DNA of 42,517 nucleotides from the IMG/VR virus record IMGVR_UViG_3300010334_000104, positions 1-42,517 of that record. One strand, given 5' to 3'. The position numbers and the translations under genes were made by a program. Below, piece by piece: positions 7,754-42,517 of the stretch. The notes beneath the pieces are model-generated. The model was given only the letters and a program-made list of their open reading frames with translations, ran no database searches and was not told the origin of the DNA. The stretch is from a virus. Position 1 is the stretch's first letter; each line of letters starts with the position of its first letter.

Positions 7754-10087
7754 CTACTCACCCCACCTATCCATAATTTTGTAGTCAACTTCAAATTTAA
7801 CATTAGTTTTAAAAGGAACATCTTCCATTCTTCCGGTTATCTCTTTAGGATCAAATCCTATGGGTATGCTTGCAAGAAAAGCATCGTGAATAAGAAAGTG
7901 AGATTTAATAGGTAACTCCCTATCGCATCTCATAGAACACAAAGAGTTAAGATCAGATGAGCTACCTTGAATACCTGAGTTAGACATTTGTTTAAGAACT
8001 TCGTCCCAGTTACTTTCAGTAAGTAGTGGGAATCTTCTTTTCCTTCCAAATATAGTGGTAGTATAGTAATTCTTGATAGCTTCACTGAGCATTTCAGTAG
8101 ACCAAAGAAATAGAGTTCTAAACTTATCTCGTGGCATGTCTACAATCTTATTAGCAAGCTCCATTGTCATACCGGGAAACTCTTTCTTTAGATTATAAAA
8201 AGCTGCTCTGGCATCCATGCGATACATAACACCAAAGTTTCCAGATTTAGCAACAAATCTCTGGTCCGGTGTAATATCATAGATACCAAAAATAAGTCTA
8301 GCCATATCAGTATGCATGTCATTACCTGAATTAATATAATCAATTAAAACTTGATCATTGCTCATATGAGCGCCCATCCTAAGTTCTAGCTGTTTATAGT
8401 CAACCTCAATTAATTGCATACCCTCATCTGGTATAAACATACGCTTAATTAGTGGTCCTTTTCTTTTGGGGATTGTCTGGACTAATTCAGCAGAAAGTCT
8501 TCCAGTAGAAGTACCTGCTTGTCTAAACTCTGCATGAATACGACCATCTGGTCTAAGTAATCCCTCTCTCAAAACACCATTTACTTCTCTGCCGTAAATA
8601 CCATAAACATAAGTATTTAGTAGCTTAGATAGAGTTCTAAACTCTACAATTAAATCTAAAGCCTCTGACTTCTCGGGGAATCTAGCAATCAAACTAGAAA
8701 TAGTTTTTTCGTCGGTAGACCTCTTCCCACCTTGAATAGGAAACTGCATTTCATCATATAGTAGGACTGCTAATTGTTGTGGGGAAGCCATATTAATATC
8801 AGATAACCCCACTAGATCTCTGAATCTTTCTTGGGTATGACTTATATCTTCGGTAAGATCTTTTTCTACTTCTTCTACATAAGAAAGATCAATCAAAATA
8901 CCATTCGCAGACATTTTGTTTACAAATGGGATAACTGGCCTTACTACAGTATTGTAAGCATCCCATACATTATCTTTTTTAAGTTCTGGAACTAAAGCAT
9001 CGTACAACCCATAAGTAACATCTACGTCATAAGCTAGATACTCATGCATTAAGTCTTTAGGACAGAACTGCATTTTAGATATGTAAGGTTTTACTGGTCC
9101 ATCCCAATCAGGTGCGCCAAGTATTTTTTGACCTAATGTTTTAAGATCTTTGGCCGCCCATTCATTAGTTCTCTCATCTATTTGATGATACATTAGCATA
9201 GTGTCATCAATATTAGTAAGACGAATGCCATAATGAACATTAAAAAACTTATACTCATGAACTGCATTGTGAACAATTACATGAGTATTAGGATTAAAAT
9301 GATCTTTGTTTCTTAAAAATACTTCGTTAGGAATAATGTAAGTACCGGTTATATGTTTTATACCTGTTACTAGAATAAAAGCATTGTAAGGATTAAACCC
9401 AGTAGTATTTTCAATATCTAAAGAACATACTTCGCCTTCTTGCGCAAGTAGTTTAAAAAGATCAATACATTTTTGATCATCATCTACAATAATATAAGAT
9501 CGTTTGCCCCAATCTCTTTTTGTAGTGGGATCTGTTTGTTCTATAGCAAATCCAATATCTTGAACAAAAGACGGAAAACTTGCATGATTTTTGGGATTGA
9601 GAACAAATTTAGGACTAAAAGTTACTATGGTGGGTATGCCCTGAAACTTGTGTATTTTGTTTCTATTTTTGGAAATAGATTCTACTTCTAATAAAGCAGA
9701 ACACAAATTACTACCAAACAAAATAATAGTTTTTGGCCTTACTAAAGATATTTCGCTTACAAGTCTTCCATTACATTGAAATAATTCGTGTGGGCTAGGT
9801 GGCCTGTCTGATAAGTGTCTACAGCTTGCACCATAAGTAGCATAAACAGTTATCTCTCTGCCAAGCTGCTGAGAAATTTCTTGAATTACTTTATGAACTG
9901 TCTTAGCACTTCTACCTGAAAATTGTTTGCCAGAATAATGTTCGCTGGATTCTGGATTTTCAAAAATCAAAAATAGGTCGGGAGATTCAGTTACCCCCGA
10001 CCCGTTAAGAATTTTATTGTTACCAGTATTTAATGTGCAGGCCTCACAGTTAGGTTTTGTTAGGTTTAATAAGTTGTTGTATCTCAT
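7754..10087 (-). CDS. UDG-like domain fused to family A DNA polymerase
   Basis: Residues about 10-190 match family 4 uracil-DNA glycosylases: four cysteines placed for an iron-sulphur cluster (NCEAC, GASC, FQC) and an RPKTIILFG strand. Their usual GEAPG motif reads IFENPES and the HPS motif reads SPK, so glycosylase activity is doubtful. A DnaQ-like 3'-5' exonuclease follows (LDIE; HNAVHE, where HNxxFD is usual; YDVDVT). The polymerase domain has motif A DYKQLELR, motif B KSGNFGVMYR and motif C LIHDA. Motif C lacks the Glu of the usual HDE, and YR replaces YG in motif B. This is the likely replicative polymerase of the phage. Similar UDG-polymerase fusions are, as I recall, known in SPO1-type phages. 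Confidence 0.93.
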   Translation of the reverse strand: MRYNNLLNLTKPNCEACTLNTGNNKILNGSGVTESPDLFLIFENPESSEHYSGKQFSGRSAKTVHKVIQEISQQLGREITVYATYGASCRHLSDRPPSPHELFQCNGRLVSEISLVRPKTIILFGSNLCSALLEVESISKNRNKIHKFQGIPTIVTFSPKFVLNPKNHASFPSFVQDIGFAIEQTDPTTKRDWGKRSYIIVDDDQKCIDLFKLLAQEGEVCSLDIENTTGFNPYNAFILVTGIKHITGTYIIPNEVFLRNKDHFNPNTHVIVHNAVHEYKFFNVHYGIRLTNIDDTMLMYHQIDERTNEWAAKDLKTLGQKILGAPDWDGPVKPYISKMQFCPKDLMHEYLAYDVDVTYGLYDALVPELKKDNVWDAYNTVVRPVIPFVNKMSANGILIDLSYVEEVEKDLTEDISHTQERFRDLVGLSDINMASPQQLAVLLYDEMQFPIQGGKRSTDEKTISSLIARFPEKSEALDLIVEFRTLSKLLNTYVYGIYGREVNGVLREGLLRPDGRIHAEFRQAGTSTGRLSAELVQTIPKRKGPLIKRMFIPDEGMQLIEVDYKQLELRMGAHMSNDQVLIDYINSGNDMHTDMARLIFGIYDITPDQRFVAKSGNFGVMYRMDARAAFYNLKKEFPGMTMELANKIVDMPRDKFRTLFLWSTEMLSEAIKNYYTTTIFGRKRRFPLLTESNWDEVLKQMSNSGIQGSSSDLNSLCSMRCDRELPIKSHFLIHDAFLASIPIGFDPKEITGRMEDVPFKTNVKFEVDYKIMDRWGE

Positions 10088-10220: not shown

Positions 10221-10232
10221 GATTTTAATTAG

Positions 10233-10305
10233 TGGGCCCTATAGGAATTGAACCTATGACCAAACGGTTATGAGCCGTCCGCTCTTACCACTGAGCTAAG
10301 AGCCC
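10233..10305 (-). tRNA. tRNA with CAU anticodon (Met type)
   Basis: A full cloverleaf of 73 nt: acceptor stem GGGCTCT/AGGGCCC (one G-U pair), D-arm AGCTCAGTGGTAAGAGC, anticodon stem ACGG/CCGT with loop CTCATAA (anticodon CAT), and T-arm with GGTTCAATTCC. The 3' CCA is not encoded, so a CCA-adding enzyme is needed. CAU can be elongator Met, initiator Met or lysidine-modified Ile; the acceptor begins with a normal G-C pair, which argues against a bacterial-type initiator. It is embedded in the leftward replication operon and is probably excised from that transcript. Confidence 0.93.
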
Positions 10306-12682: not shown

Positions 12683-13177
12683 TTATCTTTTAAGTAACGT
12701 TTGCTTATCAAATATAATCTCAGGCATTTTAGGTTGTTTAGGCATAAGATAATCTACAGCAAAAACTATTCCATGTCTACATGCGCTTCCATAGTGGGAT
12801 GTTAATGAGTGTATTTTTGGATACCATAATTCCGCTGCTTTTCGTCTAGCGGGGTCTTGTTCAAAATAAGTTATTTTTAATTTAGTACAAAGATATTTTA
12901 GAACACCTATCATTTCTATTGGTATTCTTACTTCTTGAGGAGTGGGGTACCTTGTGTTTATTACAATCGACTCATAAAGAAAGATAGTGTTCTCTTTGTT
13001 TAATCTGTTTAAATGGTCTTCGGCCAATACGTAATTAGAAAACTCGCCAGCCTCGAATATGGTGATACTATTACACTCGCGATCTAATCTTATACGCGCG
13101 TAACCCGTGGTGCCTCCCGGATCATAAATAAGCAATTCATTAAATTGTTTAAGAGTCTGTCTAGTATCAATCTTCAC
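12683..13177 (-). CDS. RuvC-like RNase H-fold protein (putative Holliday junction resolvase)
   Basis: 164 aa. The N-terminal YDPGGTTGYA strand carries the first Asp of RuvC-like nucleases, FLYESIV supplies a Glu, and a C-terminal helix SACRHGIVFAVDYL resembles the last motif, though the usual DA pair there reads SA. Such phage proteins resolve branched DNA before packaging. It starts with GTG, supported by GGAGGAG 4 nt upstream, inside the end of the XRE gene. One catalytic position looks altered, so activity is uncertain. Confidence 0.65.
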   Translation of the reverse strand: MKIDTRQTLKQFNELLIYDPGGTTGYARIRLDRECNSITIFEAGEFSNYVLAEDHLNRLNKENTIFLYESIVINTRYPTPQEVRIPIEMIGVLKYLCTKLKITYFEQDPARRKAAELWYPKIHSLTSHYGSACRHGIVFAVDYLMPKQPKMPEIIFDKQTLLKR

Positions 13178-13469: not shown

Positions 13470-15413
13470 ATGGATTACCTCTCGTTATACCAACAGTATC
13501 TTGAGTTCGATCCTTCAAAGAGTAAACCTGACGGTTTTACTCCCTGTAAATGTCCTTTTCACGAAGATAGAAATGCCTCGGCTGGAGTTAATTTAACTAG
13601 TGGGGTATTTCATTGTTTCAGTTGTTCATTAAGTTTATCCGTAACCAAATTTATCTCTAGGGTATCCAATAAAACAATGCCAGAAGCGTTGTTGATTGTT
13701 GATAGCTTTAGACAAGCTAACGGTATAAAGCAAGTTGAAAACAACTTTAGCAATAAGTTTATCTACGTAGAAGAACAATCAGAATGGAGAGATCTTTATT
13801 TAAAGTCTAAAAGGACTATCCTAGATGAAACTTTTGCAGTTGAATATTGTTCAGAAAGAGGATTTCCATTAGATGTACTAAAATCTTTTGACGTAGGTTT
13901 TTTAACAAAAGAAGATTTAAATTCTAAGTCTATATCTCCTAAGTGGGCTGAATCCTGTCCAGATGGCTGTATGGTTATTCCATACTTCTACAGCGGGAAG
14001 ATAGTTGGTCTTAGATTTAGATCTATAGACGGTAAAAAATCAGGTCTTGAGAAGTCCTTATATATCCCATTTGGATTAGATAGGATTCCTGAAATTTGTC
14101 CCACTCTAATTGTCGTTGAGGGCGAGTCTGACTTTTTTAGACTTACTTGGGAATTTAGAAAAAGAGGGATAGATATTCCAGTAATATCTACTCCCGGAAC
14201 TGCTTATAAAGTAGAGTGGGAAAGAGATCTTACAGATATAGGTCAAATAATTATTATTCCTGATTCTGATTCAGCCGGTCAGGAAATGGTTAAGAATTGG
14301 GAAAAACATAAAGGACTTGTAACTGTCTGCGATCTTCAATGGAAAAGAAAACAATTAGGTAAAGATCTTTGTGAATGGTTTGCTCAAAACGATATTGATT
14401 ACTTTGTTGATAATTTAATTGAGCTTACTAAGCTGAACAACATATCTAACCTAGTTGAAGATACCGATGACTTTTTAACTGACAAAGAAGATGACGATCA
14501 CTCAATTAACTACATAACTAAATTTATTAATGCTGGCCAGATAGGTATCATTGGCGGCGCACAAAAATCTAAAAAGACTTGGATATGTTTAAACTTAGTT
14601 AGAAGTTTGTTGACTCCCGGAAGTTATTTTCTAGGTATTGATGATTTTGTTTCTTCAGAAACAGTTCCTAATATTCTTTACGTTCAAACTGAAGGATCTA
14701 AGAGTAAATTCAAAGATCGTATTAGAAAAGTTCTTAAAGATTGTGATTACACTGACAGAGCTAAGTGGAGTTTTAAACCATCTATTAAATTAGATGAACC
14801 AAAAGATGTTACCAAGTTAATAAAAATGGTCAAAGATAAAGACATAGGTGTTCTTATTTTAGATCCATTTCAAAGATTACATTCTCAGGATGAAGATTCT
14901 TCTACTCAAACTGGCCCAGTGTGGGATGCTCTATTTAAAGTGTTAAACAGCCAAGATAAATTATGTATTCTTGTTGTTCACCACTTTAGTAAAGAAGGAG
15001 ACATAAATCAAACTTGGAAAGCATTACGCGGATCTTCACGAATGGCTGGAGAAGTTGACTTTGGTATGTTTGTTGCTAATGATGTTCAGAAAGATTATGA
15101 AGGAATAAAACTTACTTTTGATTTTCGTGACGAAGAAAGATTAACTGACGATGGTAAATCCGTATTTAGGGCTTTCTTTGATGCGGAAACTGGATTGTTT
15201 AGTAAAGTGGTGGAGAAAGAACCTTTGGTTAACTTCACTACTCAGTTAGAAAAATATATCCAAGAAAAAGGAGAAACCAAGTTTATGGATCTAGTCAAAC
15301 ACTTTTCTATTAGTGAGCCTACATTAACTAAGCATGTTGAGAGAAGCCCACTGTTAGAAAAAACAAAACCAGCTGCAGGAAAACCTGCTTGCGTTAAATT
15401 GGTAAGGAAATAA
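13470..15413 (+). CDS. Bifunctional primase-helicase (CHC2 zinc finger, Toprim, RepA-like ATPase)
   Basis: 647 aa in three parts. Residues 20-60 form a CHC2-type zinc finger (CKCPFH...HCFSC). A Toprim primase core follows (VVEGESD near 215, IPDSDSAG near 265). From about 355 comes a RecA/RepA-like helicase domain with Walker A GGAQKSKKT, Walker B VLILDPF and a VVHHFSKEG motif. A winged-helix-like end (FSISEPTLTKHV) closes it. It would unwind the fork and prime lagging strands with the family A polymerase. The start follows a promoter by only 11 nt. Confidence 0.93.
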   Translation: MDYLSLYQQYLEFDPSKSKPDGFTPCKCPFHEDRNASAGVNLTSGVFHCFSCSLSLSVTKFISRVSNKTMPEALLIVDSFRQANGIKQVENNFSNKFIYVEEQSEWRDLYLKSKRTILDETFAVEYCSERGFPLDVLKSFDVGFLTKEDLNSKSISPKWAESCPDGCMVIPYFYSGKIVGLRFRSIDGKKSGLEKSLYIPFGLDRIPEICPTLIVVEGESDFFRLTWEFRKRGIDIPVISTPGTAYKVEWERDLTDIGQIIIIPDSDSAGQEMVKNWEKHKGLVTVCDLQWKRKQLGKDLCEWFAQNDIDYFVDNLIELTKLNNISNLVEDTDDFLTDKEDDDHSINYITKFINAGQIGIIGGAQKSKKTWICLNLVRSLLTPGSYFLGIDDFVSSETVPNILYVQTEGSKSKFKDRIRKVLKDCDYTDRAKWSFKPSIKLDEPKDVTKLIKMVKDKDIGVLILDPFQRLHSQDEDSSTQTGPVWDALFKVLNSQDKLCILVVHHFSKEGDINQTWKALRGSSRMAGEVDFGMFVANDVQKDYEGIKLTFDFRDEERLTDDGKSVFRAFFDAETGLFSKVVEKEPLVNFTTQLEKYIQEKGETKFMDLVKHFSISEPTLTKHVERSPLLEKTKPAAGKPACVKLVRK

Positions 15414-15672: not shown

Positions 15673-15810
15673 ATGACTTATTTAATTAACAAGTGTCCCA
15701 ATTCGGGGAAGGTAACAGGTAAAGGGGGGACAACAGGAAAACCCCCTAAAGGGGTTATCCCTACTCCCTACCCTGACGAACCTACGGATAAACACCTATC
15801 CCGAAAATAA
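15673..15810 (+). CDS. Doubtful small frame (45 aa) over a repeat-bearing intergenic region
   Basis: ATG follows the previous stop after one base (TGATATG), which allows coupling. The product is low-complexity, rich in Gly, Lys, Pro and Thr (TGKGGTTGKPPKG), as expected when GC-rich regulatory DNA is read by chance. The DNA contains a CCCC/GGGG hairpin (AACCCC-CTAAA-GGGGTT, about 15740-15756) and one copy of the ACGGATAAACACC element of the right-end array. I favour a regulatory region over a gene. Confidence 0.3.
   Translation: MTYLINKCPNSGKVTGKGGTTGKPPKGVIPTPYPDEPTDKHLSRK
15784..15796 (+). repeat. Outlying copy of the iteron-like element
   Basis: ACGGATAAACACC here is identical to 41611-41623 and one base different from 41554-41566. 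It lies in the gap between two rightward operon segments, suggesting that the protein that binds the right-end array also binds here. Confidence 0.6.
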
Positions 15811-32399: not shown

Positions 32400-32600
32400 T
32401 TAAGGAGTAGGTATAGGAACACTAAACTCATGGGATAGAGCCGCAGTAACACCGATTACTGCGCCAGCAATCCATCGTTTAATTGCCAAGTCCCATTCAA
32501 ATTTTGAATCTTTTGGTGCTCGTTTCCATGCATCTAAATCTATACATACAGCTCCAAGAAATCCACACATAGCTCCGGTCAAAAGAATGTTATATCTCAT
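32400..32600 (-). CDS. Small membrane protein, two hydrophobic segments (66 aa)
   Basis: Two hydrophobic segments (YNILLTGAMCGFLGAVCI and WIAGAVIGVTAALS) flank a charged loop rich in Lys and Asp. The size and topology suit a holin-like protein, though the position inside the head module is not typical. ATG at 32600 is chosen over TTG at 32606; it overlaps the glycosyltransferase stop by 11 nt. Confidence 0.6.
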   Translation of the reverse strand: MRYNILLTGAMCGFLGAVCIDLDAWKRAPKDSKFEWDLAIKRWIAGAVIGVTAALSHEFSVPIPTP

Positions 32601-33849
32601 GATCAATTATCTCTTTTACTTTATCTACTACGGGTTCCCACTTTCGATCTGGTCCCTGTCTTACCATAGTTATAGACGGATAAAGTGGGGTAATTGTGTC
32701 ATTTAGCCCCCATCTCCATTCACTTAGGTAAGGTAGCATCATTATACATTTCTTACCCATAGATCCGGCTAAGTGGGCTATCATACTGTCTACAGTAACT
32801 ACTACATCTAGGTTTTTAATAAAAGCAGCTGTATAAGCAACATTTGGAAGTCCATCTCTAACATTATAGAGCATGTAATCTGTTTTAACTGGTTCCCCAA
32901 GATCCAAAGATATTAAAACATTATCAGATAACGGTTTAAATATATCTGGATGAGGTATAGATCTATTTTTATCGTTAGGATGATTAGGAGATCCTCTCCA
33001 GTTTAACCCCACAGTTTTTTGATTTGAACTTTTAAAATTAGAAAAAAGAGATTTATCCCATTCTTCAATTACTGATTTCCTAATTTCTTTTACCCAATTG
33101 GGTAGGCTACCATACATATTCTCTTTAAAATCTTCTGGATAAACAGAGACTTTTACAAAGTACAAAGGTATGTCCATTACCGAACAATGATGGTCAAATT
33201 TTACATTGACAGAAAAATCTTTTGATCTACAAATTACGTAATCTATACCGAGACTATCTGCATTATCACTGACCAAATGGTAGAGTTCAGAAGAAGATTC
33301 ATAAATAATCTTATCAAAATACTTTTTTAAAGTGGGAATGTATCGTAAAAATTGTATCTGATCTCCAAGACCCTGCTCAGCATGAACAAATAAAGTTCCG
33401 CCTTTTAGTAGTGTCTGAGTTATATCGGGCTGTCTAAATCTAGTATGATTAGGAAGATGAACTTTTCTCCAGTCATAAAGAGTCCATCCTAATTGATCGC
33501 TACCCCTGCGAAGAAGTACATGAGAAAAATTCCAGTTAATAGAAGGAATATGGTTACATTTGCTATATGCATATGCATATGTATTATACTCCTCTTCTAA
33601 TTCTCCCAAATGATGATAACAAGATGCTAAAGTTACATAGCTTGTTAAATTATTTGGGTCTGCTCCAACACCCTTTTTAGCATATTTCAGTGCTTCTTCG
33701 TACTTACCTGTGTGAAGCAGACATACGGATTTAAGTATGTATAAATCTGGATTCTCGGGTGTAGATAAAATTGCTTGATCTATTTGCGATTCATATTGAG
33801 ATGCAAATAGAGGATCGTTTATTTGAGCGGGGCTTATAGAAATGGTCAT
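32590..33849 (-). CDS. TPR-glycosyltransferase (GT9/heptosyltransferase-like) in the head module
   Basis: 419 aa. Residues about 30-110 are tetratricopeptide-like repeats (LLHTGKYEEALKYAKKGVGADPNN). The rest matches TPR-linked GT9-like transferases: LFVHAEQGLGDQIQFLRYIP, then GLNWRGSPNHPNDKNRSI and VTVDSMIAHLAGSMGKK. Such enzymes transfer a sugar from a nucleotide donor, often to protein or surface polymers. Lying between the capsid/decoration and adaptor genes, it may glycosylate a virion protein; that is inference. It is downstream of two hairpins and has a good GAGGAG site, so expression may be tuned apart from the capsid. Confidence 0.85.
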   Translation of the reverse strand: MTISISPAQINDPLFASQYESQIDQAILSTPENPDLYILKSVCLLHTGKYEEALKYAKKGVGADPNNLTSYVTLASCYHHLGELEEEYNTYAYAYSKCNHIPSINWNFSHVLLRRGSDQLGWTLYDWRKVHLPNHTRFRQPDITQTLLKGGTLFVHAEQGLGDQIQFLRYIPTLKKYFDKIIYESSSELYHLVSDNADSLGIDYVICRSKDFSVNVKFDHHCSVMDIPLYFVKVSVYPEDFKENMYGSLPNWVKEIRKSVIEEWDKSLFSNFKSSNQKTVGLNWRGSPNHPNDKNRSIPHPDIFKPLSDNVLISLDLGEPVKTDYMLYNVRDGLPNVAYTAAFIKNLDVVVTVDSMIAHLAGSMGKKCIMMLPYLSEWRWGLNDTITPLYPSITMVRQGPDRKWEPVVDKVKEIIDHEI

Positions 33850-37881: not shown

Positions 37882-38405
37882 ACTAACCACCATTTGATAT
37901 AGCCAGTAAAATCATTAATATCTCTAACACGTCTATATACTCCTTGACCGTCATTTTGAGATCCTTTTTTGCCATCGGAAGTATTTCCCCCAATAGTATG
38001 AATAGAAGTTCCATCTACTTTAATAACTATTTCGATATGCCTTTCTTGAGTTGGACCAAAACCTTTTACCCAATAAGCTAAACAACCCCTAGTGGGCGTA
38101 TTTATTTTTGTTTTATTAGTGATAGACCAATTTCTCCATTCAAGAACAGCTGCCGATTTAAACATTTTCCATCCTGCATTAAACAAACATTCCGAAACAA
38201 AAGCGGCGCACCAAGAATAACCTTCGTTTAAACCAACTAGCTTAAGAAATTTAGCTACCCATTTTCCTTTGTTGTTGCCACCTATTTCAGTTACTTTAAT
38301 AGTGTCTGCATAATAAGCTGCCCAAAGAACAGCGCGTTCTTGAATTGGCAAATTATCCCATTCAAATTGGGAAATATTTATATTTTCTGGTTTAAGATTT
38401 GTCAT
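37878..38405 (-). CDS. CHAP/NlpC-like peptidoglycan hydrolase (175 aa)
   Basis: A single catalytic domain with the active-site Cys in YSWCAAFVSECL (about residue 60) and the His in RHIEIVIKVDG (about 122), followed by IHTIGGNTSDG: the pattern of TIGR02594/CHAP amidase-endopeptidases. No cell-wall-binding domain or signal peptide is seen. It lies between terminase and portal genes, unusual for an endolysin, so it could be either the lysin or a virion-associated enzyme. AGGAG 7 nt upstream supports the start. Confidence 0.82.
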   Translation of the reverse strand: MTNLKPENINISQFEWDNLPIQERAVLWAAYYADTIKVTEIGGNNKGKWVAKFLKLVGLNEGYSWCAAFVSECLFNAGWKMFKSAAVLEWRNWSITNKTKINTPTRGCLAYWVKGFGPTQERHIEIVIKVDGTSIHTIGGNTSDGKKGSQNDGQGVYRRVRDINDFTGYIKWWLV

Positions 38406-40099
38406 ACAAAACTCCTAGATGATCCCATTCTAAATTTAATTTTTGTGGCTTTTTGCTTTTCTTTTGAAAGATATTTTTTTATGGCTATTTTGTCTTTCAA
38501 AATATAACATGCTATTGCTACAGACATAACCCTATCATCATGACCAATTATAGCTCCAAATTTATTACCGGGAAGTTTTGAATAGTTTTTCATCTCTTCT
38601 AATGTTTTTATTTGTCTTATAATCAAAGACCCGTCCATAGACATTTCAAACAAAGCAGCTAATGCCATGCTTTTTGTTTTAACATTAGTATGAAATCCTG
38701 GTTTTCTTACCCTGCTATTTACTTTTGCTTCGTAATCAGTATGATAATAAATATTATCGTATCCTATTACATTTATAAGAGTATTTAGAACTGAGTGGCC
38801 GTGATTATTTCTTTCTACGGCAATTAAAGCTGAGTTGTACCAGTAACCGAGTTGACTAATTAAAACTGCATAATCATATGGTTCCCATCTTCCATGTAAT
38901 GTAGCAACTTGTTCCATTGTTTCTGAATCAATAACGTCAGTAGAACAAGAGTCTGGGTCACCTTTATCATTTAAACCTTCGCTAGGGTCAGCAGAAAGCA
39001 AATATCTATGACCAATAGCAGGTAAAGAAAATATAGATAAAGAAACTCGCGATCGTTTAGTCTCCAAATACAGTTCAGGATATTTTCTAGGTACTTCAAT
39101 TGTTAATTTTTCCGAATCTAAAGCTACTGGAACTAATTCTTTATCTATAAAACCGTTGTCAAAATAACCTTGCCCACTAGTAAGAAACGCTTCTTGAGCG
39201 TTCATTGGATATTCTTGTGGAAAATCTCCTTCTTCTGAAGATCCATCTCTTTTACTATTTCTAAGGGCAAGTATTTTATTTCGTCGCCAATTTAATTGTT
39301 CTGGCGACAAATCAGGATAAAACTCTAAAAGTTTTTTTTCGTCATCAGTGGGCTCCCAAATTTGTTCTTCTTCAAATGGCTTAGCATAGGTGGGTTCTAT
39401 AAACCAAGGAAAAAACCTGTCTGAATAGATACTATTTCCTTCTTCGGCAGCTTTGTATTCTACAAAATAATAATTACCTACGCCATTAGCAGTGCTTTCA
39501 AGAAAAATATTGCCGTCTTCAGGTACGGATTCCAAAAGACCAGCAATAACTGGTCCAGCATTATTATAAAAAGCAACTTCAGATAAATGAACATTATTTA
39601 AAGTTCCTCCACGACCAACTTTAGCAGATCCGGCCCATCCAACAGTAAAACTTGAATTAATATCTTCAAACTCAAGTTTAGTAGCAGAATCCGTGCCTAT
39701 TTTTCTTTTTAAGTGGGGTGGAAGGGTATCGTTAAATCTTTTTACCAATGCAAATAGATTTTTAGCATTAGTTTCATCCTGCGCAATCATCATTGATTGG
39801 GTATTAGGAACATTAGCAGTGTCTACAAATATTCTTCCAGCTATAAAAGTTGTAAAACCCATTTGACGGGCTTTAAGAATTATTTCACGGTTACCTCTAA
39901 ATGTTTCAAGTTTAGGATTCTTCTTCAAGTACAACTGCTGGGCTGAGTTTAGCCGGAATGGGATTATATTCCTTTGCTTGTCTCTGATTTTCAGGTCTTC
40001 CAAGGTTATGCATTGAATTTGTTTGGGCAGTAAAACCTGCGAGATTGCCTCCGCGAATAAGGTTGTCGAGGTGCCTGTGAAGCTGGACCTTTTGTTCAT
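38402..40099 (-). CDS. Large terminase subunit (ATPase-nuclease)
   Basis: 565 aa. The N-terminal ATPase has KARQMGFTT (Walker A variant, near residue 77) and VHLSEVAFY (Walker B with catalytic Glu). The C-terminal RNase H-type nuclease shows ADPSEG, AVERNNHGHS and GHDDRVMSVA as the three acidic motifs. It packages DNA into the procapsid. The ATG at 40099 has AGAAGGA 10 nt upstream, which supports the long N-terminus even though it overlaps the upstream gene by 188 nt. Its stop overlaps the hydrolase start by 4 nt. Confidence 0.94.
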   Translation of the reverse strand: MNKRSSFTGTSTTLFAEAISQVLLPKQIQCITLEDLKIRDKQRNIIPFRLNSAQQLYLKKNPKLETFRGNREIILKARQMGFTTFIAGRIFVDTANVPNTQSMMIAQDETNAKNLFALVKRFNDTLPPHLKRKIGTDSATKLEFEDINSSFTVGWAGSAKVGRGGTLNNVHLSEVAFYNNAGPVIAGLLESVPEDGNIFLESTANGVGNYYFVEYKAAEEGNSIYSDRFFPWFIEPTYAKPFEEEQIWEPTDDEKKLLEFYPDLSPEQLNWRRNKILALRNSKRDGSSEEGDFPQEYPMNAQEAFLTSGQGYFDNGFIDKELVPVALDSEKLTIEVPRKYPELYLETKRSRVSLSIFSLPAIGHRYLLSADPSEGLNDKGDPDSCSTDVIDSETMEQVATLHGRWEPYDYAVLISQLGYWYNSALIAVERNNHGHSVLNTLINVIGYDNIYYHTDYEAKVNSRVRKPGFHTNVKTKSMALAALFEMSMDGSLIIRQIKTLEEMKNYSKLPGNKFGAIIGHDDRVMSVAIACYILKDKIAIKKYLSKEKQKATKIKFRMGSSRSFV

Positions 40100-40841
40100 C
40101 AGATAAATATCCTTCTATAGCCGTTACAATTATTACTGTATTTCTTACAACTTCCGAAACAGGCAAAAAATCTTGCTGCATTTTCTTAATTTCAGCACCT
40201 GTTTTAGCAAGGTTACCATATTCTCGTATGAGTTTTACAGATTCGTCTTTTGCCCGTTGCTGCTTTATGTTAGCATTACAGTGGGCTTCCATTTTAGAAA
40301 CAATTTCGAAAACCTTATTGCCATCTAGACTTTGCCAAGCTTCTTTAAACTCCTGAACAAGCTTTATAAAAGCCCTGTCAGCAAGACTAGCTGTTTCTTC
40401 GCCCAGAGCTTCATTAACTTTTTCATCTACAAGATGATGAATAATATCTAATTCATCTTTAAGATCTGAGTGGGGTTCTTCTTGGAAGATTTTTTCTAAC
40501 AAATCTGGTTGACTAAAAGTAGTTAATTTAGCCCACTTACCTGTTTTAATAGGTGCGCCAGATTTAGCTCCACAAAACCTACATCTTCCATTTAAGTGGG
40601 AAGTAGGATCTGTTGCTGGTGAATTATGGCAAACAATCTCAGCAAACATTTCAGGTTTTTGCTGCTTAAATTCTGCCGGAGTAAGTCCGTTTCTTTGGTA
40701 ATAAGGAATAAATTTAATTTCATCCCAAGTTGCTTTTTTACCTTTTCTTAGCGCACCACAAATAGGTTCACCATTTAAATTAGTAGTCCATTCAATAGGA
40801 ACTACGGATCTTCCACCCAATCTAACTTCTCGTCTAGTCAA
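39912..40841 (-). CDS. Probable small terminase or zinc-binding packaging protein (309 aa)
   Basis: Directly upstream of the large terminase. Residues about 70-95 contain a Cys/His cluster (VCHNSP, SHLNGRCRFCG) likely to bind zinc; the middle is helical (DLKDELDIIHHLVDEKVNEALG and further helices). No standard terminase HTH is recognised, so the name comes from position. It starts with TTG, supported by GAGGAG 8 nt upstream and overlapping the sigma-like gene. Its last 63 codons are also coding in another frame for the large terminase. Confidence 0.6.
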   Translation of the reverse strand: MTRREVRLGGRSVVPIEWTTNLNGEPICGALRKGKKATWDEIKFIPYYQRNGLTPAEFKQQKPEMFAEIVCHNSPATDPTSHLNGRCRFCGAKSGAPIKTGKWAKLTTFSQPDLLEKIFQEEPHSDLKDELDIIHHLVDEKVNEALGEETASLADRAFIKLVQEFKEAWQSLDGNKVFEIVSKMEAHCNANIKQQRAKDESVKLIREYGNLAKTGAEIKKMQQDFLPVSEVVRNTVIIVTAIEGYLSDEQKVQLHRHLDNLIRGGNLAGFTAQTNSMHNLGRPENQRQAKEYNPIPAKLSPAVVLEEES

Positions 40842-41448
40842 TTTTTGTACTCCTCAAAAGAATAGCTAATTTAGCGCAAGCACGAATAAATGGTTTGTAA
40901 TTTCTAATGTACTCAGTTCTTTTTTGTGCCGGAGTTAATTTTTCATCTAGTGGGTAAAGATTACCGTGATTGTTTAGAAATATTGTTATGGCCCTGACTT
41001 CTGGATAAAACATAAAGTCTAATGGGCTCTTCATTATCTTTTCCAATCTTTCAAGTTCTATAAAAGTAAATGGATCGTTTATGTCATTTACTTTTTCTTC
41101 TTGGTAATACTGAAATGAAACCCAATCCTCAAAGTCATTCTCATCGGAAGATTCATTAACTAGATTTTCATAGCTTAGTGTCTTTCTGGCATCTCTTTGG
41201 GATCTAGTTTCATGCCTCACAAAATCTCTTATTTTATTTTTGATTGTAGAAGCTAAAATTCTTTCAATATTATCTTTACTAGTGGGAGTTGATCCGTAAT
41301 GATTCCATAAAGCAAGTATTACCGCTGAGAATATATCTTCCTTGTCGTCAGCACTTATTGAGTAGCTACCTTGTCTGCTGTAGTGGTTAATAAGTTTTGA
41401 GATTTTTGTTTTATTTTCTATTAAGAAGTCGGCTATTAAAATGGTCAT
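40834..41448 (-). CDS. Sigma-factor-like late regulator (204 aa)
   Basis: Residues about 32-90 (DKEDIFSAVILALW..., ILASTIKNKIRDFVRHETRSQRDA) have the spacing and hydrophobic pattern of sigma70 region 2, like ECF sigma factors and ArpU/RinA-type phage late regulators. The C-terminal part (PAQKRTEYIRNYKPFIRACAKL) could be a DNA-binding helix pair. Being first in the structural operon, it may turn on late transcription. AGGA lies 10 nt before the ATG. The similarity is moderate; a terminase-associated DNA-binding protein is the alternative. Confidence 0.6.
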   Translation of the reverse strand: MTILIADFLIENKTKISKLINHYSRQGSYSISADDKEDIFSAVILALWNHYGSTPTSKDNIERILASTIKNKIRDFVRHETRSQRDARKTLSYENLVNESSDENDFEDWVSFQYYQEEKVNDINDPFTFIELERLEKIMKSPLDFMFYPEVRAITIFLNNHGNLYPLDEKLTPAQKRTEYIRNYKPFIRACAKLAILLRSTKID

Positions 41449-41495: not shown

Positions 41496-41526
41496 AGTAT
41501 ACGACAGGGTACGACGGATTGTATAC
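41496..41526 (-). promoter_or_regulatory. Possible late promoter/operator before the structural operon
   Basis: Two GTATAC sites (41497-41502 and 41521-41526) are separated by 18 bp containing two ACGAC repeats in 10-bp phase. Leftward the first gives a TATACT -10 box, but no good sigma70 -35 box stands at the right distance. It could be a late promoter read with the phage sigma-like factor. Confidence 0.35.
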
Positions 41527-41554: not shown

Positions 41555-41804
41555 CGGGTAAACACCTTTACCCGTTATTGGCCACCCTTTATCCGTGCCC
41601 GGTTGGGACCACGGATAAACACCCGGTGACCCTGTTTATCCGTTGATTTTAGGTTCAAATTAGACCGGATAAAGCACGGATAAAGCACGGATAAAGGGGT
41701 ACTCAGGTTCAAAGTGGGGTATTTGCCTGTTTACCCGTGGTTTTATCCGTGCCTGTTTAGTGGGCTGTTTTAGGTTCAAAATCAACGGATAAACCCTTTA
41801 CCCG
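41555..41804. repeat. Iteron-like array (12 copies of CGG(A/G)TAAA)
   Basis: CGG(A/G)TAAA or its complement occurs at 41555, 41567, 41588, 41612, 41635, 41666, 41677, 41688, 41730, 41742, 41786 and 41797. Three copies lie in perfect 11-bp phase (41666-41695). AGGTTCAAA occurs three times between them, and a 16-bp perfect inverted repeat (TTTATCCGTTGATTTT, 41635-41650 and 41778-41793) brackets the middle. The layout resembles an iteron origin or a cooperative operator for a phage initiator. Confidence 0.85.
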
Positions 41805-41822: not shown

Positions 41823-41866
41823 ATTGCAACGCTTAATATAACCCTTTAGGGTTATTAAGCTGCAAT
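41823..41866. other. Long near-perfect dyad
   Basis: ATTGCA..GCTTAAT..AACCCT pairs with AGGGTTATTAAGCTGCAAT over 19 bp, interrupted by two 2-nt bulges, with a 2-nt loop. It lies next to the iteron-like array. It could be a cruciform at an origin, a single-strand initiation hairpin, or an RNA hairpin. Confidence 0.7.
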
Positions 41867-41943
41867 GCCGGGGGCCGAAGTTAAGGGTCAAATTGAAAAT
41901 AAGAATGACTAAAGTAATTGTTAGATAAGATTTAAATTGAGAA

Positions 41944-41972
41944 TTGATAAATAATTAGGTATAGAATATACT
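41944..41972 (+). promoter_or_regulatory. Rightward promoter candidate in the terminal region
   Basis: TTGATA (41944-41949), 17-nt spacer, TATACT (41967-41972). A similar GGTATAAAATATACT block follows 49 bp later (42007-42021) but without a good -35. If the map is circular, it would drive the 115-1002 operon. Confidence 0.5.
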
Positions 41973-42035
41973 TTATGTAAAAGAAGTTTTTGGGGAGAAA
42001 GTATTGGGTATAAAATATACTATAGTAAAGGCTTT

Positions 42036-42163
42036 CAAAGTAACTTAGAGGTCAATAGGGACCCATAAAGATATTTAGTTTCTTTAGCAAAGACGAGTTA
42101 ATAGTAACTTACTAACTAATATATCTTTATAACTAAATACATATAGTCTAACTAGTTACTTTG
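42036..42163. repeat. Nested inverted repeats in AT-rich DNA
   Basis: CAAAGTAACT (42036-42045) with AGTTACTTTG (42154-42163), and inside it ATAAAGATAT (42065-42074) with ATATCTTTAT (42121-42130). Both are perfect 10-bp arms. No gene lies here. Confidence 0.6.
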
Positions 42164-42292
42164 GTTTATTTTATAGTCTATGGCTAAATAAACCTATGTA
42201 CTAACTCTATGTATTACCGATTGAATATCTATGGCGAAGTCCAATAGATAGCATTAGTAATTAGTTATCATCTACTGATATGTATAAATAAA

Positions 42293-42490
42293 CATATATC
42301 TGCAATAGAAAAAATATTTAATATGCAATTATTTCGCTAATGCAGATATATCTATCTAGTTATGTATCAGCTAAGTACGTATATCTGAAATAGAGAAAAA
42401 ATTTTAAGTGTAACTATTTGGTTATTGCAGATATATCTATGTTGCTATGTATCTGCTAGATAAACTAATTCGTTATTGTAGATATATAAA
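42293..42490. repeat. 85-bp tandem repeat with internal dyads
   Basis: Two units (42293-42377 and 42378-42462) align over 85 bp at roughly three-quarters identity, and part of a third follows (to about 42490). Each unit carries ATATCTG... and ...TGCAGATATAT arms that form a dyad (11 bp perfect in the first unit). AT-rich tandem dyads next to an iteron-like array suggest an origin, partition or packaging element. Confidence 0.75.
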
Positions 42491-42497
42491 ACCAGGG

Positions 42498-42516
42498 ATA
42501 TATTAGTTCTAGGGAT
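42498..42516 (+). repeat. 19-bp repeat, right-end copy
   Basis: ATATATTAGTTCTAGGGAT, identical to the complement of 2541-2559. It points rightward out of the window, whereas the other copy points leftward into a leader. Confidence 0.7.
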
Positions 42517-42517
42517 A

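Follow-up and report, generated by a model that had tools for sequence, protein, structure and literature searches.

A conserved iteron-like array beside the packaging genes of an uncultivated tailed phage as a probable replication locus

A long non-coding region in the genome of an uncultivated tailed phage carries twelve CGGRTAAA sites within 250 bp. This array is real, conserved and functional-looking, and it is most likely a replication locus of a known general kind, in which the parts are combined in an unusual way. We lean towards the view that it is an iteron-type replication locus bound by the phage's own primase-helicase, in a manner resembling SPP1 or P4.

Results

A dense array of CGGRTAAA sites in a circular-map phage genome

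The whole stretch of DNA that was analysed, hereafter called the window (G000), comprises the 42,517 bp of a virus record and is a complete or near-complete tailed phage genome. Its map is circular, because the sequence of a relative that is about 95% identical (G001; 44,914 bp, with a 42-bp end repeat) continues across the junction of the two window ends. Genes recognised for packaging, structure and lysis encode the large terminase (TerL), a CHAP lysin, an SPP1-type portal and the major capsid protein; those recognised for replication and recombination encode a UDG-PolA fusion, an SSB-like protein, a Sak4-like annealing protein, a PD-(D/E)XK exonuclease, an SNF2-type helicase and a primase-helicase. 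In the fusion (7754-10087, - strand), a family A DNA polymerase is preceded at the N-terminus by a uracil-DNA-glycosylase-like domain. A tRNA-Met (CAT) gene (10232-10305, - strand), besides which no known structured RNA was found in the window, lies between the gene for this polymerase and that for the SSB-like protein. A TPR protein with a weak match to glycosyltransferase family 9 (32590-33849, - strand) is encoded among the head and structural genes and is kept in relatives. An RNase H-fold, resolvase-like protein (12683..13177, - strand) was recognised by eye and gave no informative family match; it and its neighbours, the Sak4-like annealing protein and the exonuclease, suit recombination-dependent concatemer formation. 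Neither a host nor a prophage was found in a search of genome contigs, and the array region had no DNA similarity among 50,697 phage records.

Exact CGGRTAAA sites (A sites) were found by motif search 17 times in the window, against 2.3 expected. Twelve of them make up the main array (41555..41804), evenly divided between the + strand (41555, 41612, 41666, 41677, 41688 and 41786) and the - strand (41567, 41588, 41635, 41730, 41742 and 41797). In 500 simulated first-order Markov sequences, the maximum was 2 such sites per 250 bp. The highest count reached by a single 8-mer in the real window is that of CGGATAAA, 8 in 250 bp, compared with at most 3 for any 8-mer in 60 simulated first-order Markov windows, a comparison that corrects for the post hoc choice of the motif. 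The array thus consists of multiple short sites beyond chance, as is expected of an iteron-type locus, and both the number of sites and the density given in the original prediction held up.

The array lies in a long non-coding region, with leftward late genes on one side and rightward small genes (393-1002) on the other. An A precedes the core in 11 of the 12 sites, and the sites are spaced with a helical period of about 10.9 bp (p = 0.0017, Rayleigh-type test). Neither feature had been noted earlier, when three sites in 11-bp phase were reported; these are present at 41666, 41677 and 41688. In G005, an independent relative, the helical phasing of the sites was non-significant by the same kind of test (p = 0.10). 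The three predicted AGGTTCAAA boxes (B boxes) were all located on the + strand. The first (41651..41659) is also found in the arrays of three relatives (G001, G005 and G010), the second (41705..41713) stands in a CTCAGGTTCAAA context that recurs in G010, and the third (41772..41780) has a counterpart in G005 that lies beside matching A sites and is inverted in place (TTTTGAACCTAAAA). The perfect inverted repeat of the prediction also exists, with arms of 17 bp instead of the 16 bp given (41634..41650 and 41778-41794), and both the boxes and this repeat are interleaved with the A sites.

The 11-bp phased repeats resemble centromeres of the ParR/TubR type, and the array might accordingly be a partition or condensation site made of centromere-like iterons. 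Such a function is very improbable, since no ParA, ParM or TubZ gene was recognised among the proteins scanned and the phage is fully equipped for lytic-type replication and packaging.

The array is conserved in number, motif and place across lineages

In relatives, the array is kept upstream of the genes for a sigma-like protein, a candidate small terminase (TerS) and TerL. In G001, 11 of the sites are exact and one is a near-site (CAGGTAAA), and the array differs from that of the window by A/G swaps at site position 4. These swaps include all three tandem sites together (window 41666-41695), which read CGGATAAA in the window and CGGGTAAA in G001, in what looks like a concerted change.

The second lineage, a single species (G002-G005), carries its array at the corresponding place, where 12 exact sites occupy 259 bp with a different spacing, and it retains B boxes, one of them inverted as described above. 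Its identity to the window amounts to 65% for TerL, 64% for the polymerase, 60% for the primase, 42% for the TerS candidate and 28% for the sigma-like protein. A spacing that varies while number and motif stay constant between lineages is as expected of reiterated protein sites. The conservation in related phages that had been proposed as a check was therefore found for number, motif and place, but not for the exact spacing, which is not kept in this relative of about 60-65% identity.

In a third lineage (L035/G010; 48,987 bp, with a 127-bp end repeat; TerL 52% and primase 48% identical), gene order and two AGGTTCAAA boxes are kept, and the sites are degraded to CG[G/C]ATAAA. Five of these lie within about 210 bp (2 exact and 3 with one mismatch), with a further one-mismatch site nearby.

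More distant genomes were also searched. Around TerL in about 80 relatives, most of them about 30% identical in this protein, a search for analogous arrays gave a few k-mer clusters. A search of IMG/VR for the paired-site pattern returned 12 contigs, which by a rough estimate is about the chance level, and some only of these carry real arrays (L125/L128/L129, L131 and L121/L124). In the unrelated gut phages L125 (1262-1590), L128 and L129, which were selected by motif, ACTACGG(A)TAA repeat arrays lie upstream of sigma-region-4-like and Terminase_2 genes. L131, another unrelated phage, has four direct and several inverted copies of the TGACGGAT repeat at 13616-13870, directly 3' of a D5-type primase gene. 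The TGACGGATAAA array of this phage begins right after that gene; as L131 was found by motif search, its motif cannot be counted as independent evidence, but the position of its array can.

The array adjoins the start of the packaging operon

The first gene of the packaging/late operon encodes a 204-aa sigma-like protein (40834..41448, - strand) with weak ECF/sigma-70 similarity. Where regions 2 and 4 would be looked for in such a factor, region 2 alone matched, below the cut-off, and structure prediction gave a low-confidence model (pLDDT 60) with weak sigma matches. It is followed by a 309-aa protein (39912..40841, - strand), a TerS candidate by position only, which has a conserved Cys/His/Gly motif (GRCR..GA..G.P), no match in family searches and a structure prediction too weak to decide (pLDDT 43), and then by TerL (38402..40099, - strand; phrog_2, 2e-23). 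Neither the sigma-like protein nor the TerS candidate had relatives in the collection of 50,697 phage records.

This arrangement raised the question of whether the array is a packaging initiation site (pac or cos-like), which the small terminase would bind and near which TerL would cut. The array stands just upstream of the three genes in all lineages, SPP1 pac overlaps late promoters and gene 1 (PMC6316719), and circular maps, with the end repeats of G001 and G010, allow headful packaging. A pac site is expected in or next to terS; here the sigma-like gene comes first and the TerS candidate second. Like SPP1 pac, the array is placed where the packaging operon begins, but SPP1 pac has two bound regions around the cut, in contrast to our phage with its 12 short sites and its second locus beside the primase gene. 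As a packaging site would leave this second conserved locus unexplained, and the TerS candidate is 42% identical between phages with identical motifs, we regard this explanation as quite improbable.

A structured hairpin and AT-rich DNA border the array

At the edge of the array there is a strong hairpin (41823..41866; -13.9 kcal/mol as DNA). DNA folding gave a bordering hairpin in all three lineages, with z values of -4.3 in the window, -4.6 in G005 and -5.1 in G010, and the hairpin sequences are unrelated. A terminator function of this hairpin was considered and rejected: in each of the three lineages the genes on its two sides are transcribed away from each other, so that it does not end the transcript of a neighbour.

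Beyond the hairpin lies AT-rich non-coding DNA with several inverted repeats (41900..42517), a possible unwinding region. The DNA adjoining the array has 22-31% G+C in the window and 21-34% in G005, as expected of an iteron origin. G010 lacks a long AT-rich stretch because a gene begins right beside its array. Part of the AT-rich DNA (42275-42506) is made of non-coding tandem and inverted repeats with units of about 44-85 nt and a GCAGATATATCTA core, and G001 is without one of these units.

GC skew, which had been suggested as a means of checking the prediction, did not mark an origin: there was no inflection at the array, and the skew at synonymous sites was equal on both sides. A bidirectional origin at the array thus receives no support from GC skew.

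A second locus lies beside the primase-helicase gene

Neither the hairpin at the array nor a second, smaller locus (15716..15792, + strand) figured in the original prediction. The second locus lies just 3' of the primase-helicase gene, from which it is separated by one small ORF, at a circular distance of 16.6 kb from the main array. It comprises a near-A-site (CAGGTAAA, 15716-15723), a hairpin (AACCCCCTAAAGGGGTT, 15740-15756), half a B box (GAACCT, 15778-15783) and an A site (CGGATAAA, 15785-15792). Counterparts 3' of the primase gene were recognisable in all three lineages (G001, G005 and G010). In G001 and G005, a CCCCCTAAAGGGGG hairpin and a GAACCT box are enclosed by two exact sites (70 and 74 bp apart); in G010, a CCCTAAAGGG hairpin is flanked by a CGCATAAA site and, in inverted orientation, a near-copy of that site. 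The hairpin of the window folds no better than shuffled sequences in its wider context (z -0.1), and it could alternatively be a terminator. A second site-bearing locus at the gene of the putative initiator, as in the paired loci of SPP1, is therefore present.

We considered the possibility that the array and the second locus act in transcription. A phage transcription factor, either unrecognised or working with the sigma-like protein, would bind the A sites and B boxes and control the divergent promoters at the array, as well as the promoter of a small + strand operon at the second locus. The array does lie between divergent genes, of which the first late gene is sigma-like, and beside a sigma-70-like promoter match directed towards the sigma-like/TerS/TerL operon (41496..41525, - strand). 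In G005, TATAAT directly adjoins the first A site. The second locus is upstream of a promoter-like match in the window and of TTGACA-17-TATAAT in G005, and in phages of the L125 type the array precedes the genes for a sigma-region-4-like protein and TerS. Yet the promoter-like matches near both loci are no commoner than chance, twelve strict sites in 250 bp far exceed the usual operators, and regulation of this kind needs neither a hairpin nor AT-rich DNA. The sigma-like protein, moreover, is about 28-32% identical between lineages with identical motifs. Control of the late operon is for these reasons a rather unlikely function of the array.

The primase-helicase is a candidate for binding the A sites

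The primase-helicase gene (13470..15413, + strand) encodes a DnaG Zn-ribbon, a Toprim domain, an AAA_25 ATPase resembling RSF1010 RepA and a predicted C-terminal helix-turn-helix (HTH). The Toprim match (Toprim_2) and the match to RSF1010 RepA are weak, and the HTH rests on several weak matches at about residues 589-644. A domain set of the P4 alpha type may thus be present in one chain, with weak Toprim_2 and HTH matches and a helicase family that is apparently not that of P4. From these domains we propose that the primase-helicase could bind the A sites through its predicted C-terminal HTH.

The HTH stretch is 62% identical between the window and G005, which share the same motif, and 30-41% identical to that of G010, whose motif is CG[G/C]ATAAA. 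For the AAA domain, the identity is 67% between the same-motif lineages and 55-57% to the lineage with the changed motif; in the predicted recognition helix the contrast is small (58% vs 50%). With three lineages, these identities make a joint change of HTH and motif suggestive only.

Other candidates were sought in the same genome. No plasmid-type Rep, DnaA-like, lambda O-like or G38P-like initiator or loader was recognised among the proteins scanned, which did not include every small ORF. Pfam and PHROGs gave no G38P-type initiator, G39P loader or DnaB-type helicase among these proteins, nor was RepA_N, Rep_3 or a similar initiator recognised. The original prediction, which had described the array as iteron-like, possibly bound by an unrecognised phage protein and without a Rep of a known plasmid family, remains the best reading in its main part; the protein that binds the array may, however, be one already recognised, the primase-helicase being a sensible candidate. 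The sigma-like protein and the TerS candidate are poorer candidates because of their low conservation between phages with identical motifs, although either of them could contain a short DNA-binding segment that is conserved.

Discussion

The features of the array find partial parallels in several known systems. In SPP1, G38P binds repeats and AT-rich DNA at two loci 12-13 kb apart, oriL, which lies in its own gene, and oriR (PMC6316719, PMC3485210), and oriR possibly stalls the fork and starts the switch to concatemer synthesis (PMC6316719; PMC3485210). Our phage likewise has two repeat loci with AT-rich DNA, one of them at the putative initiator gene, and SPP1 has a circularising genome of about 44 kb (PMC6316719, PMC3485210). 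Unlike those of SPP1, the two loci are very unequal (12 sites vs 1-2), they are accompanied by conserved hairpins, and they have no demonstrated sequence relation to oriL or oriR; and whereas SPP1 has a separate initiator, loader and DnaB-type helicase, the sole candidate here is a fused primase-helicase.

Other parallels concern the protein and the hairpins. The P4 origin also consists of two cis loci, ori1 and crr. The alpha protein of P4, a Toprim primase-helicase, binds the repeats of its origin through a winged helix (PMC4234260); in our phage, primase and helicase are similarly joined in one protein with a predicted HTH. In contrast to P4, the helicase core is of the AAA_25/RepA-like kind and apparently not of the P4 type, the motif differs, and the phage is no satellite. 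Origins of the pRN1 type, which have also been proposed for phage BIP-1, take the form of stem-loops on the 3' side of the replication gene (PMC4234260). The hairpins described here are comparable in being conserved in shape rather than in sequence and in lying 3' of a multifunctional replication protein, that of pRN1 having a C-terminal winged helix (PMC4234260), but they are shorter and are combined with iterons, which pRN1 lacks. Short repeated sites as a platform for an initiator are shared with iteron plasmids and the RepA_N origins of PLE (PMC7145576), though no RepA_N, Rep_3 or similar initiator was recognised here. A search of the literature for iterons, terminase and sigma factor in combination found nothing.

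In the mechanism that we propose, the C-terminal HTH of the primase-helicase would bind the CGGRTAAA sites along a single face of the DNA helix. The resulting nucleoprotein complex, aided by the adjacent hairpin and AT-rich DNA, would open the duplex, and the same protein would then load, unwind and prime. The smaller copy of the locus, in which a hairpin is accompanied by one or two A sites, would pair with the main array over 16.6 kb, like oriL and oriR or ori1 and crr. One locus would serve theta initiation, and the other would be its partner or act in a late switch to concatemer synthesis.

Several observations argue for a replication locus: the hairpin, the AT-rich DNA and a second locus with A sites and a hairpin; the arrays at the same place in the window, G001 and G005, with 12, 11 plus one near-site, and 12 sites; and the position of the L131 array right after a primase gene. 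A model of packaging only or of a single operator has no need of a second locus at the primase-helicase gene. Against a replication locus count the position of the array, which adjoins the packaging operon and not the replication genes, the lack of a GC-skew inflection and the non-significant phasing in G005. The arrays of L125, L128 and L129, lying upstream of genes for a sigma-region-4-like protein and TerS, fit transcriptional control or packaging better than replication. A more specific proposal, which we put forward tentatively and hold to be possible though doubtful, is that a single Toprim/RepA-type primase-helicase is its own initiator at two unequal loci and thereby couples the start of replication to the concatemer switch or to late expression.

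Origins of lytic phages are rarely found by sequence alone. The strict number of sites, the hairpin conserved in structure and the matching second locus provide a concrete and testable pair of origin and initiator for an uncultivated phage group. They also suggest a route by which origins may be found, namely through short repeated sites that are common to a non-coding region and to the 3' side of the primase-helicase gene.
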